Positions 13,406 through 19,963 of a stretch of 47,580 bases of DNA are shown here, in pieces. The first letter of the stretch is position 1, and each line of letters opens with the position of its first letter. The DNA is from a virus, in the IMG/VR virus record IMGVR_UViG_3300025880_000024, positions 1 through 47,580 of that record, one strand, 5' to 3'. The notes beneath the pieces were generated by a model. It saw nothing but the letters and a program-made list of their open reading frames with translations. It was not told where the DNA came from and ran no database searches. The translations under genes and the position numbers were made by a program.

Positions 13406-13504
13406 TCATCTGAAGTCATCCATTATAAACATGACTGCAAAACCGATTGCACATAGTCCTAAGACTATGCACAACCCACCATATACGATCAAACCAAGAT
13501 CCAT
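13406..13504 (-). CDS. Tiny single-pass membrane protein (32 aa)
   Basis: The product MDLGLIVYGGLCIVLGLCAI plus GFAVMFIMDDFR is one glycine-rich hydrophobic helix with a short charged tail. It begins on the stop codon of the preceding gene (TGATG) with AAGGTGG upstream. It is the fourth tiny membrane gene in the early block. Confidence 0.55.
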   Translation of the reverse strand: MDLGLIVYGGLCIVLGLCAIGFAVMFIMDDFR

Positions 13505-14048
13505 CAGTATCCACCTTCCATTTCATCTAATTTAATACGATCAGCTACAACTTCGTTAGCCTTCTCACCACAAGAAAAGGTCTTACCTGTCACTGGGTTA
13601 TACGTCCAACCATCTACCATCGACTTTTCGATGCTTCCAAACAGTTCAACCATAGGTCCAACGCTTTCATGCTTTCCATCTGGCATTTCAAGATAAGCGG
13701 GTTGTCTTGTATCAGCTGGAACCACTAGCACACAATCTTGCGCTAAAGTATAGAAACCCTTGACTAGCTTCTCGTAGTCACCACGATTCATCATGTATGC
13801 GACAGCCATAACGCCACCCCATGAGCCTATGCATTGGGTAAAAGAGCCTGTCATGTTACCCATTGCACGAGCCGTTGAAATGTGACGCAGAAACTTAGCA
13901 TCAATATCTAGAGAAACTTAGCATCAATATCTAGTGCATCCAAGCCCACAAGTGACGGGTTAAGCGCTGGGTTACCAGCCTTATTGTTGTCAATCTCAAA
14001 TAGTACAGTGTCACCTGTGATTGCTGCGATCTTTTTAGTAGAGTCCAT
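13504..14048 (-). pseudogene. Early gene split by a 23-bp tandem duplication
   Basis: A gene starting at ATG 14048 (AAGGA six bases upstream) encodes MDSTKKIAAITGDTVLFEID and reaches a stop at 13908-13910 after 46 residues, ending DALDIDAKFL. That stop is created by an exact 23-bp tandem duplication (13889-13911 and 13912-13934). With one copy removed the frame runs on as DIDAKFLRHISTARAMGNMTGS to the stop at 13504, giving a 173-residue protein. As given, only the N-terminal 46 residues and, from an internal ATG at 13863, the C-terminal 119 residues can be made. The family is not recognised; the C-terminal part has three cysteines and a small hydrophobic stretch. It may be a true mutation, a reversible slippage state or an assembly error. 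Confidence 0.75.
13889..13934. repeat. 23-bp perfect tandem duplication
   Basis: Two head-to-tail identical copies of 23 bases lie within the coding sequence of the early gene at 13504-14048. Because 23 is not a multiple of three, the second copy shifts the frame. No other large tandem repeat is seen in the left arm. Confidence 0.95.
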
Positions 14049-14937: not shown

Positions 14938-15411
14938 TCACTTGGCATTTACGGCAGCGGCCAATGCTTCAAGTTGTCCTTTTGATGCTACCACGTTGAC
15001 CTTGTCATTCTTTGCAGCCTTTTCTAAACGCTTGACCAATTTGGCCATTTCTTCTGCAAGATTAAACTCATTACTTGATTCGCTTGCTTTTACAAAATCA
15101 ACCCAATGGCCTGTTACCGCATCAAGGTCGAATGTACCTTTTTTGTTATGAACGAATGTCTTATTCTCTGCGTCATAATCAGCCTTTGACCAATGATCAA
15201 TAAACTCAATAAGAGCCTTGACCCTAGATCCGTTGCCCATTTTAGCGACCAACAAATTGAGTAAAGCTACTTGACCAAATTCGGCATGATTAGCCATGGC
15301 TGATAGTGCTGCAATCTGGATCCTATCTTGAAGCTTAGTTGACGCAGCGCCGATTGCTTTGATTTCGTTTGTGAGTGCTTTTGTGTCTGTAATAATTGCT
15401 AAACGTGTCAT
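14938..15411 (-). CDS. First leftward early gene, unknown function (157 aa)
   Basis: The protein begins MTRLAIITDTKALTNEIKAI and is mostly helical, with an internal GHWVDF and a basic C-terminal helix region (VKRLEKAAKNDKVNVV). There is no membrane segment or cysteine. It is the first gene read leftward from the control region, directly behind a promoter that contains a palindrome, with AAAGGA upstream of the ATG. Promoter-proximal early phage proteins often block host functions or regulate later genes, and this one is a candidate DNA- or RNA-binding protein, but no motif shows it. Confidence 0.8.
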   Translation of the reverse strand: MTRLAIITDTKALTNEIKAIGAASTKLQDRIQIAALSAMANHAEFGQVALLNLLVAKMGNGSRVKALIEFIDHWSKADYDAENKTFVHNKKGTFDLDAVTGHWVDFVKASESSNEFNLAEEMAKLVKRLEKAAKNDKVNVVASKGQLEALAAAVNAK

Positions 15412-15437
15412 AATGTTTGTTCCTTTAATTATGCTAA

Positions 15438-15467
15438 ATTATACAATCACCATTGATTGCATAACAA
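15438..15467 (-). promoter_or_regulatory. Leftward early promoter with internal operator
   Basis: TTGTTA (15462-15467) and TATAAT (15438-15443, preceded by TTG) lie 18 bases apart on the minus strand, just upstream of the first early gene. The spacer holds the inverted repeat CAATCA-ATGG-TGATTG (15444-15459). A protein on this site would cover the promoter between -35 and -10, a classical repressor position. Confidence 0.65.
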
Positions 15468-15895
15468 CTCATAATCGAATTGTCAGATTAATGTAACACG
15501 TTCCCGCCCTAATCTATGTGAATCGATTCCCTCTATCTTAGATATTCAAACGAGGCCCAATATTAGGGATTCATTCAAACGGCCAAGATAAACAGTTTCA
15601 ACTAGCGTTATCGCGCCACCATATTCTATGCAAGTTTGCTTTCTATCTGTTTACTTGCGTTTGCTTTTCTTTAGGTTAAAGCTATAACCTTGCCAGACTC
15701 TGGACTGTGCTGGCGGACCTGTTTTTGGATGGCGAACCTCGCCTTATGGGATTACCTATGTTTACCCTCGTATTGTTAGCTGCGTCAAACGTCGTCTAGG
15801 TTTGCAGCGCCGTATCACTCGGCCGTCAGACTAAGAGGACTTTTGAACTATGGGCTGAAGGCCAGTTCGTTTTATGTCTCGTTTGTCTTGGATTT

Positions 15896-15924
15896 AACTT
15901 AAGTTTAGTTCAGACGGTTGTCAA
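15896..15924 (-). promoter_or_regulatory. Possible distal leftward promoter
   Basis: TTGACA (15919-15924) lies 17 bases from TAAGTT (15896-15901) on the minus strand. The -10 match is weak. If active it would transcribe about 480 bases of untranslated, structured leader before the first early gene. Confidence 0.35.
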
Positions 15925-15926
15925 CC

Positions 15927-16449
15927 CATTGATTTCATTGGATAAAATGAGTGTCAGTCTGGATTTATTCAATGTTTTCAATGGGTTAGCTGATTCGTAT
16001 TTATCTTAATTATTATTGAATTATTTAAACTTTCTTATAAGTCATTGATTTCATTAGATAAAACTTGTGATAATTGTTACAGTTTTAATATTATGTAATG
16101 ATTTCAATAGGTTATAAAGATCATAGTATAGATAATTAAGATTATGTAATGATTTCAATAGGTTAGAAGAAAAGAGGTTTGCTCAACCGCAAGATAATCA
16201 AGATTATTCAATGTTTTCAATAGGTTACAGGAATGGGGTTTTAGCGTCATAGTATTGGGGTCAAGTATCAGCATATAAGACCGAATCGGACCTATTAGGT
16301 CTAAGATCAGCGACTCAGATAATGAGGAAACGCGTATGCGCGTGAGATAGATCTTTCGGAATGTCAATGGGGTTAGCTATGCTATTGTAACATATCCGTT
16401 ATGATCTGTGGGAATGGGTCCTGTAAGTCATTGATTTCATTGGATAAAA
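15927..16449. repeat. Seven irregular 20-bp repeats (ATTGA-TT-TCAAT type)
   Basis: Type A, CATTGATTTCATTGGATAAAA with small changes, occurs at 15927, 16043 and 16429. Type B, TAATGATTTCAATAGGTTA or CAATGTTTTCAATAGGTTA, occurs at 15969, 16095, 16146 and 16208. All are in the same orientation, at intervals of 42-74 bases apart from the last. The shared core is the inverted repeat ATTGA-TT-TCAAT. They are probably sites for a sequence-specific protein in replication or early control. Confidence 0.85.
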
Positions 16450-16740
16450 ACCTTAGAATGACGGATCGTGTTTTTATGGGGTACGGGTAGGGAAAGCTAA
16501 AACAGCGCTGTATGGGCCGTTTTAGAGGGTCTAAGAGCGTCAATAGCTTATCACGGTTTATTGCAGGCTGTAACAATATGTGTAGTTGCATAAATGTCAC
16601 AGATGGGTCCGATGTGGTCCTATTCGTTTGATGGGTAGGTTATATATAAATAGTAGGTCCGATCCGTACCTATCCCAGATTCCAGACACGGTATGCGCAT
16701 ACATCATGGCTGCTATGCAGAAAACGCATGGCTGTCATAG

Positions 16741-16852
16741 TGTGACATATATACCACAGATCGTCATAGTGTGACCTTTATGCAACAGTGGGTGTTACAT
16801 TTGTGCAACAGTGTGACATATATACAACATATGGTGTGACATATGTGCAACA
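16741..16852. repeat. Five 18-bp iterons, plus one inverted copy nearby
   Basis: Copies of TGTGACATWTRTGCAACA start at 16741, 16770, 16793, 16812 and 16835, with one to three changes each. An inverted copy (TTGCATAAATGTCACA) lies at 16586-16601. Spacing of 19-29 bases places them on nearly the same face of the helix in part. A cluster of this form next to an AT-rich tract resembles replication iterons or an operator array. Confidence 0.9.
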
Positions 16853-16977
16853 GGGGGTGCTGGGGCCACCAGCCCTAGGGGCGTTATATACATGACCAAT
16901 GACAGCGGGGGGTATTTACGTCTTGTTAACCACTGAGCTAACAGATAGGTTTACAAAGCTTACTATTATCACTATTA

Positions 16978-16992
16978 GTGAACATTGTTCAC
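16978..16992. promoter_or_regulatory. Perfect 15-bp palindrome, candidate operator
   Basis: GTGAACATTGTTCAC is an exact odd palindrome about 115 bases upstream of the first rightward promoter. It resembles LexA-like GAAC-GTTC dyads but has a 3-base centre rather than the usual 4, so LexA binding is uncertain. A second palindrome, GCGGATATCCGC, lies at 17033-17044. Confidence 0.5.
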
Positions 16993-17105
16993 TCTCAGGA
17001 AACTAGACAGTTAGATCACATATTGAATATAAGCGGATATCCGCCTATGTAAGCCTCTGAGTACTCTATATAGGCAACATTCCGCCTACTAGTTCACTTT
17101 AGGGG

Positions 17106-17134
17106 TTGACATTCAGCTCAATACGTGGTATAAC
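17106..17134 (+). promoter_or_regulatory. Sigma70-type promoter P1, rightward
   Basis: TTGACA (17106-17111) is followed after 17 bases by TATAAC (17129-17134). The transcript would begin near 17141 and run through the AT-rich repeat tract before the first rightward gene. The hairpin TTAGG-TTCGCG-CCTAA at 17358-17373 lies between P1 and P2. Confidence 0.8.
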
Positions 17135-17148
17135 TGTACTTATAGTAT

Positions 17149-17350
17149 AACATAATGAGATTATAGAGTATACTTAAAGTATTATAACTCTAATTAATAA
17201 TACTACTTAGTTAATACTAACTATAAGTAATACTATAAGTATACTTAAAGGTACTTTAAGACTATAAGTAATACTATAAGTATACTTAGAGTATATAATA
17301 ACTCCTATATTATTAATATTAAAGTAGATACTTAAAGTATACTTATAGTA
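17149..17350. repeat. AT-rich tract with TATACTT/AAGTATA repeats
   Basis: The tract contains many copies of TATACTTAAAGTAT-like half-palindromes. Two exact copies of a 28-base unit occur at 17220-17247 and 17261-17288, 41 bases apart. The composition is nearly all A and T, suited to DNA melting or to binding of a regulator that also recognises the palindrome at 10156-10172. Confidence 0.75.
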
Positions 17351-17454
17351 CCATATTTTAGGTTCGCGCCTAACAGTTATACTTTAAGTAATACTCTTAT
17401 AGGCTATATTTGTCGCAGTACAATAAGTATTTAACCTTCAAGTACACTTTTATC

Positions 17455-17483
17455 TTGACAAATAGAGACTTCTATGGTATAAC
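17455..17483 (+). promoter_or_regulatory. Sigma70-type promoter P2, rightward
   Basis: TTGACA (17455-17460), 17 bases, TATAAC (17478-17483). Transcription should start near 17490, only a few bases before a 15-codon leader ORF. It serves the lysis operon. Confidence 0.82.
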
Positions 17484-17497
17484 TGAGGAGTCCTGTA

Positions 17498-17545
17498 ATG
17501 AAAACTAACAGTAGCAACAGCATCAACAACACGTATCAATACTAG
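17498..17545 (+). CDS. Possible 15-aa leader peptide
   Basis: GAGGAG precedes an ATG that opens a frame of 15 codons reading MKTNSSNSINNTYQY. It ends 18 bases before the start of the asparagine-rich gene, whose beginning (MSTNSTITSYFSNNN) is similar in composition. It may be a leader peptide that sets translation of the next gene, or a decayed duplicate of its 5' end. Confidence 0.35.
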   Translation: MKTNSSNSINNTYQY

Positions 17546-17563
17546 CAACGTAAGCAGGACAAC

Positions 17564-19338: not shown

Positions 19339-19553
19339 TCATTACAGCCTCCCTAATATACAAACACAAAGGTAAGTTAGAAGTCTATCTAACGATACTA
19401 GCTTGCTTATTATACTTAATCGCACAGACAGGATGGACTACCGCCTACTTCAATGGAATACTCTGGGGGGCCGACATATTCAACTATGTATGGTTCGCAT
19501 TTAATACCACTGTCTTTGCCACTCTTACAATATACTTAAGGAAACTAAAGTAA
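19284..19553 (+). CDS. Three-TM membrane protein, holin-like (89 aa)
   Basis: I set the start at MYSVYLDTFSTAWACILL, preceded by AAAGGATAGG. Three hydrophobic segments are visible (CILLIITASLIY, YLTILACLLYLIAQTGW, YVWFAFNTTVFATLTIYL). Similar three-helix proteins with FNT motifs occur in marine myo- and podoviruses. It ends in a TAATG overlap with the GTA-type holin. Confidence 0.65.
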   Translation: MYSVYLDTFSTAWACILLIITASLIYKHKGKLEVYLTILACLLYLIAQTGWTTAYFNGILWGADIFNYVWFAFNTTVFATLTIYLRKLK

Positions 19554-19963
19554 TGGCTTTACCTGCACTTATACCTTTGTTAGCTCCTCTCTTAGGAGAT
19601 ATAGTTAAAAAGGTTGTACCTGACAAGAACTTAGCTGAGAAGATAGAACGTGAAACTACACTTGCTCTAATTCAGAAGTCTGATTCTCTTACACAGATTC
19701 AAGGAGAGATTGTATTAGCTGAGGCTAAGTCAGACAGTTGGATCACCTCATCGTGGCGTCCTTTGCTTATGATGGTCTCCGTACTTATTATAGCTATCAA
19801 CTTCTTAATAATACCTGTTGTAGCTATGGCCTACCCGCCTGTTACTTCCAATATGATAGACTTCCCTAACCAACTGTGGACTCTTCTACAGATTGGTGTA
19901 GGCGGTTATATTGTAGGTCGTAGTGGTGAGAAGATCATTAAGAACTGGGATCACTCTAAGTGA
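19553..19963 (+). CDS. Holin of the GTA 3TM family
   Basis: The 136-residue protein matches the family of holins linked to gene-transfer-agent release in alphaproteobacteria: an N-terminal hydrophobic stretch (ALPALIPLLAPLLGDIVKKV), a helical middle, then ITSSWRPLLMMVSVLIIAIN and a C-terminal GVGGYIVGRSGEKIIKNW. Holins make the inner-membrane lesions that release the endolysin. It lies in a tight run of membrane protein genes. This family call is one hint for an alphaproteobacterial host. Confidence 0.8.
   Translation: MALPALIPLLAPLLGDIVKKVVPDKNLAEKIERETTLALIQKSDSLTQIQGEIVLAEAKSDSWITSSWRPLLMMVSVLIIAINFLIIPVVAMAYPPVTSNMIDFPNQLWTLLQIGVGGYIVGRSGEKIIKNWDHSK

Follow-up and report, generated by a model that had tools for sequence, protein, structure and literature searches.

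What reads the seven repeats in the spacer that separates this virus genome's divergent gene blocks, and what might they do there? The window (the whole stretch of DNA analysed, 47.6 kb) is an IMG/VR virus record whose replication genes are related to those of roseophages CRP-9 and CRP-13, the DNA polymerase being 60-61% identical to its counterparts in these two; we take it to be a marine phage and infer its actual host from the roseophage relatives. By family assignments, genes for polymerase, primase/helicase, thymidylate synthase and a nuclease lie in the leftward block, and those for endolysin, holin, terminase, portal and tail proteins in the rightward one. Between the left (replication) and right (lysis/structural) blocks lies a spacer of 2.15 kb (15412-17563) in which the ORF map and family assignments give no convincing gene and which holds all seven sites. 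GC skew turns at ~15.5-16 kb, i.e. in the spacer, a turn that divergent transcription alone could also produce. Neither a lysogeny gene nor a phage-encoded RNA polymerase gene was recognised in the phage genome, and the spacer region had no blastn-level DNA match in the phage collection.

Outside the spacer, an early gene (13504-13863, minus strand) matches the S-adenosylmethionine lyase family PF23780 with an E-value of 1e-6, just over the cut-off, and its product is possibly an anti-restriction protein. The holin (19553-19963, plus strand) is of the gene-transfer-agent type (PF11351, E 7e-16).

Results

One family of repeats in both orientations

Seven copies of the repeat lie within 15921-16446, far above chance expectation. 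A matrix built from relatives, with the window's own copies excluded, recovers these seven sites and no others, at 26.8-32.2 bits, while nothing else in the 47.6-kb window scores above 9.7; by this measure the copies are real, as the initial annotation had held, and unique in the genome. They are site 1 (TATCCAATGAAATCAATGGGTTGA, 15921-15944, minus strand, 28.3 bits), which is the outermost copy, site 2 (TATTCAATGTTTTCAATGGGTTAG, 15966-15989, plus, 32.2 bits), site 3 (TATCTAATGAAATCAATGACTTAT, 16037-16060, minus, 28.3 bits), site 4 (TATGTAATGATTTCAATAGGTTAT, 16092-16115, plus, 26.8 bits), site 5 (TATGTAATGATTTCAATAGGTTAG, 16143-16166, plus, 29.4 bits), site 6 (TATTCAATGTTTTCAATAGGTTAC, 16205-16228, plus, 27.8 bits) and site 7 (TATCCAATGAAATCAATGACTTAC, 16423-16446, minus, 29.8 bits).

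Their description had to be corrected in several respects. The initial annotation saw two 20-bp subtypes, ending in GATAAAA and GGTTA and all in one orientation, whereas we find a single family with a 24-bp unit, WATnnAATGWWWTCAATRRSTTA, of which four copies are on the plus and three on the minus strand. The four ‘GGTTA’ copies read TAT[TG][CT]AATG[AT]TTTCAAT[GA]GGTTA, and the three ‘GATAAAA’ copies are the minus-strand form of these, reading TATC[CT]AATGAAATCAATG[GA][GC]TT. Over 24 bp, the two groups agree at 15-18 positions when the three are reversed and at 14-16 in the original register, and the same-direction alignment was rejected as the worse fit. Two relatives, L009 and L067, carry TTCAATGATTTCAATGACTTA, which has the form of the reversed copies and joins both forms. 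We find the proposed core string ATTGATTTCAAT on neither strand, and the inverted repeat seen in it is imperfect in every copy; the internal symmetry that is visible is a direct repeat, CAWTG-N4-CAWTR. A supposed similarity to an operator in the early promoter (15444-15459) fails as well, since this stretch reaches -10.1 bits at best on the matrix whereas true copies have 26.8 or more, and with it falls the idea that one regulator reads both.

Conservation in related phages

Comparison of CRP-9, CRP-13 and fetched contigs revealed a conserved core, TGACAGMGRGGRGTATTT...TTAACCAC, in the spacer. This core (TGACAGCGGGGGGTATTTACGTCTTGTTAACCAC in the window, 16900-16933, plus strand) served as the anchor for collecting relatives and gave 66 IMG/VR stretches with an exact-pattern match; the helicase was the other anchor, and an IMG/VR search for relative loci with the window's 157-aa protein returned none. 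The 1.4 kb upstream of the core in the relatives contain 90 motif matches (47 distinct sequences) in 72 kb, a count that is inflated by near-identical contigs, and many contigs stop before the region; the controls gave 0 matches in reversed sequence and 1 in 446 kb elsewhere. Conservation, the check suggested with the initial annotation, thus speaks for repeated protein-binding sites that related phages share, the motif being found both in IMG/VR relatives and in roseophage CRP-9. Copies number one in CRP-9, six in L067 and L109 and seven in the window, and their flanks, number and orientation vary, with mixed orientation in the relatives too (---+++ in L067, -++ in L122, -+ in L121). In L105, sites stand at the positions of window sites 5, 6 and 7, and their base changes stay within the consensus. 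Some relatives are without the motif and have other repeats or arrays in their spacer instead.

Four further direct repeats like GTGTGACATATATACAACA lie at 16739-16858 of the window, between the repeats described above and the conserved core, and relatives have other repeats at that place (GTTTAAYRTTAAAC, TATCCNNNNGGATA, GTGATCAC). The core region itself (16900-16980) consists of TGACAGCGGGGGGTATTT..TTGTTAACCAC followed by GGTTTACA, where CRP-9 has a TGTTAACC/GGTTAACA inverted repeat, and it is a candidate origin, packaging site or promoter. A GTTC-N7-GTTC element resembling the alphaproteobacterial LexA box occurs ~270-470 bp upstream of the core in L107, L011, L122, L134, L064 and CRP-9 (L080), often in tandem with an 11-bp period; it is concentrated in the relatives' spacer, rare in other fetched sequence, and was not found in the window's spacer.

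Match to the IHF consensus

The right half of the motif, WWTCAATRRSTTA, fits the consensus of integration host factor (IHF), WATCAANNNNTTR (PMC10380432), including the CAA-N4-TTR spacing. In the window the consensus is matched exactly by three of the seven copies (site 1, at 15922, and sites 3 and 7) and with one mismatch by site 2 and the other three, always at the second position. Across the 47 distinct copies C-A-A is invariant (CA in 47/47) and the two T positions are kept in 45/47 and 47/47, half of the copies having T, not A, at the second core position. The 20 bases 5' of the core are 70-85% A+T against a regional mean of 67%, a modest excess.

A text search for phage 11-mers, in which IHF was not named, led to a probe for the Escherichia coli datA IHF site that contains TATCAATAGGTTA. 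This sequence shares 12/13 bases with sites 4-6 (the right half of site 4 having the bases TCAATAGGTTA, as in the probe) and differs at the second core position, with A for T. The right half of the probe scores 16.7 bits, more than any of 5000 shuffled sequences; its left half shows no match, giving -11.8 bits over 24 bp. With IHF sites in general the phage repeats have in common the CAA-N4-TTR core, the A/T-rich 5' side and the asymmetry of the site; unlike the IHF consensus, they allow A or T at the second core position, have a TRRS-like 4-bp spacer and conserve a left half, AATGWWW or, in relatives, GTTTAAAA. No IHF/HU protein (PF00216) was recognised in the phage record, and a phage-encoded IHF/HU was for that reason rejected as the binder.

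Occurrence in bacterial genomes

A 21-bp version of the motif is present in at least 118 contigs of GTDB bacterial genomes, against ~8 expected by chance on a rough estimate, and among the 80 matches listed nearly all are from Proteobacteria, the main group known to possess IHF (PMC10380432). One hundred fetched loci fell into 58 groups by flanking sequence, so the matches are more than a single locus met repeatedly. Across 296 genomes from the family of G001, the Salibaculum (Rhodobacteraceae) genome behind L203, we tallied at least 149 matches to AATGWWWTCAAN4TTA (AATGWWWTCAANNNNTTA) against 11 to the reversed pattern; TGGG and TGAC lead among their spacers and TAGG is one of those that follow, host-family genomes thereby favouring the same spacers as the phage copies. 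The full motif was found 16 times against 0 for its reverse in 149 genomes, 15 of the 16 places listed being outside predicted genes and several immediately after the 3' end of a tRNA gene or close to a recombinase gene, and twice against 0 in 70 genomes from the class of a Sphingobacterium. An ihfA model matches in 13/13 sampled genomes of the Rhodobacteraceae family, 12 of them over the cut-off.

One large group of motif loci is in Burkholderiales (L157, L158, L160, L172, L194 and others), where an almost invariant CTAAGYCATTGATTTCATTGA lies ~90 bp upstream of mraZ, and these mraZ leaders have separate AGTG repeats downstream of the element, nearer the gene.

Over-representation of the motif in bacterial genomes points to a host protein as the reader, for which IHF is the best candidate; the enrichment alone does not name the binding protein.

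Arrangement of the sites

In the window, the distances from one site to the next are 41, 75, 51, 51, 62 and 222 bp, or 3.9, 7.1, 4.9, 4.9, 5.9 and 21.1 turns at 10.5 bp, and in L067 they are 41, 64, 115, 40 and 63 bp. Spacings were measured from just 5' of the WWTCAA core, which we take, from general structural knowledge, to be the centre of the site. Helical phasing on this reference had p = 0.011 for the window and 0.006 for the relatives relative to spacings shifted at random by at most 5 bp, a test in which the spacings are not all independent, and reached no significance with the motif midpoint as the centre. As the result depends on the choice of centre, the phasing is suggestive, and the sites perhaps lie on one helical face.

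A -35-like hexamer, TTGACA (15919-15924, minus strand), overlaps the end of site 1 and points to the left (replication) operon. The same hexamer ends the leftmost copy in 5 of 8 loci (the window, L107, L088, L122 and L134) and is present in 0/27 other copies from the relatives and the window; as L088, L122 and L134 look like one lineage, these amount to about three independent cases. Matching -10 elements are weak, that of the window at 17-bp spacing being TAAGTT. A scan for consensus promoters did not flag TTGACA at site 1 and listed TTGTTA-N18-TATAAT directly before the first left gene.

Discussion

Our analysis suggests, with good though not decisive probability, that the repeats are an array of host IHF sites that folds the DNA between the operons, probably tuning leftward early transcription and maybe with a role at an origin. 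At the sequence level this is supported by the motif, its conservation, the match to the IHF core, the over-representation in bacteria and the fact that no IHF/HU gene could be recognised in the phage, and from these we infer IHF binding, the promoter effect and the origin role. The initial annotation had expected a dimeric protein, which may hold in a different sense, as IHF is a heterodimer; the inverted repeat on which that expectation was based does not stand.

Other readers can be envisaged. A phage-encoded regulator might use the sites as operators to autoregulate early transcription, and the product of the first left-operon gene (14938-15411, minus strand; 157 aa, phrog_1448 family, E 2e-28) had been put forward as the binder. 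We regard this as improbable. Loci with at least two copies and enough flank do have the 157-aa family as first gene, and no locus that starts with a different gene has more than one copy; this co-occurrence may be shared ancestry, and L098, L127 and L140 have distant family members and no sites. The overlap of the outermost site with a -35-like hexamer and a motif tighter than a loose IHF site would suit an operator, whereas over-representation between genes in bacterial genomes would not be expected of a phage-specific one. The protein itself matches no family annotated as DNA-binding and its AlphaFold2 model, at pLDDT 43, is unusable, which leaves its candidacy without direct support. A host protein other than IHF is suggested by the TRRS spacer and AATG left half, which are over-constrained beyond the IHF consensus, and by T at the second position in half of the copies, so that another host protein, or IHF with a partner, might be the reader; the bacterial enrichment, which leaves the protein unnamed, and the Burkholderiales site upstream of mraZ would agree with this. 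That a different conserved proteobacterial regulator with an IHF-like core binds here nevertheless seems very unlikely to us: IHF agrees with the CAA-N4-TTR spacing and its A/T-rich 5' side, with matches confined almost entirely to Proteobacteria, with the tRNA ends and recombinase genes nearby, which are usual neighbours of IHF sites, and with the match in the datA probe, and the AGTG repeats of the mraZ leaders are separate from the site and downstream of it.

We give hardly any weight to the sites being iterons for a phage replication initiator and marking the origin, given that their mixed orientation (four plus, three minus) and irregular spacing are unlike typical iterons and that the motif also occurs in unrelated bacterial genomes. 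It is true that they lie in the spacer at the GC-skew turn, with AT-rich DNA and the conserved core nearby, in a genome encoding its own polymerase and primase/helicase; however, the turn is expected from divergent transcription alone, and no initiator gene was recognised among the proteins scanned, many small genes having no assigned function. DnaA boxes were rejected, the start TTAT[TC]CA being similar and the remainder not, as were promoters for a single-subunit phage RNA polymerase, given the mixed orientation, the lack of a recognised polymerase gene and the occurrence of the motif in bacterial genomes. A broader idea is that the spacer is an exchangeable sensor hub, in which arrays for different regulators (IHF-type in the window; LexA-like GTTC-N7-GTTC, TATCCNNNNGGATA and GTTTAAYRTTAAAC in other relatives) let the virus read host physiology or titrate regulators before replication; we consider it unlikely.

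Based on the IHF reading we can propose how the array would work. Host IHF, a DNA-bending heterodimer, would bend the DNA at seven places with near-whole helical-turn spacings. The ~520 bp separating the divergent operons would thereby be folded into a compact complex, and their control elements would come close to one another. Where the outermost site lies, IHF would either contend with RNA polymerase for a putative leftward promoter or set the position of the polymerase on it; since this site overlaps the -35-like TTGACA, IHF occupancy probably tunes leftward early transcription. Early transcription, and possibly opening of a replication origin, would in this way be made dependent on host IHF. 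To our knowledge, and on a non-exhaustive search, so many IHF sites within a single spacer would be unusual for a phage in which no lysogeny genes were recognised, and our literature search on IHF and podovirus early promoters found no report.

As binding sites, the phage repeats would belong to the known IHF-site kind. Likewise in an alphaproteobacterium, Caulobacter, IHF sites are found at phage-type gene promoters: the IHF elements IBE1 and IBE6, at two promoters, are required for production of the gene transfer agent, as established by ChIP-seq and mutation (PMC11150451). Unlike those, the putative phage sites are seven in one spacer of a virus genome without a recognised lysogeny gene. 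The E. coli oriC and iteron plasmids similarly have IHF sites in a control region that is flanked by replication genes or close to them, as is generally known (see also PMC10380432); the phage spacer differs in that no DnaA-box array or iteron/Rep pair is shown there, and its origin is putative.

In summary, this phage probably makes use of a protein of its host to shape the DNA where the early genes, and perhaps replication, start. If this is true, a group of marine phages employs a DNA-bending protein of the host in the control region that separates its gene blocks, which would give a testable view of early transcription, and perhaps of origin opening, in phages without a recognised RNA polymerase of their own. 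Furthermore, the extended motif AATGWWWTCAATRRSTTA would be a sharper handle on IHF sites of Rhodobacteraceae than the loose general consensus.
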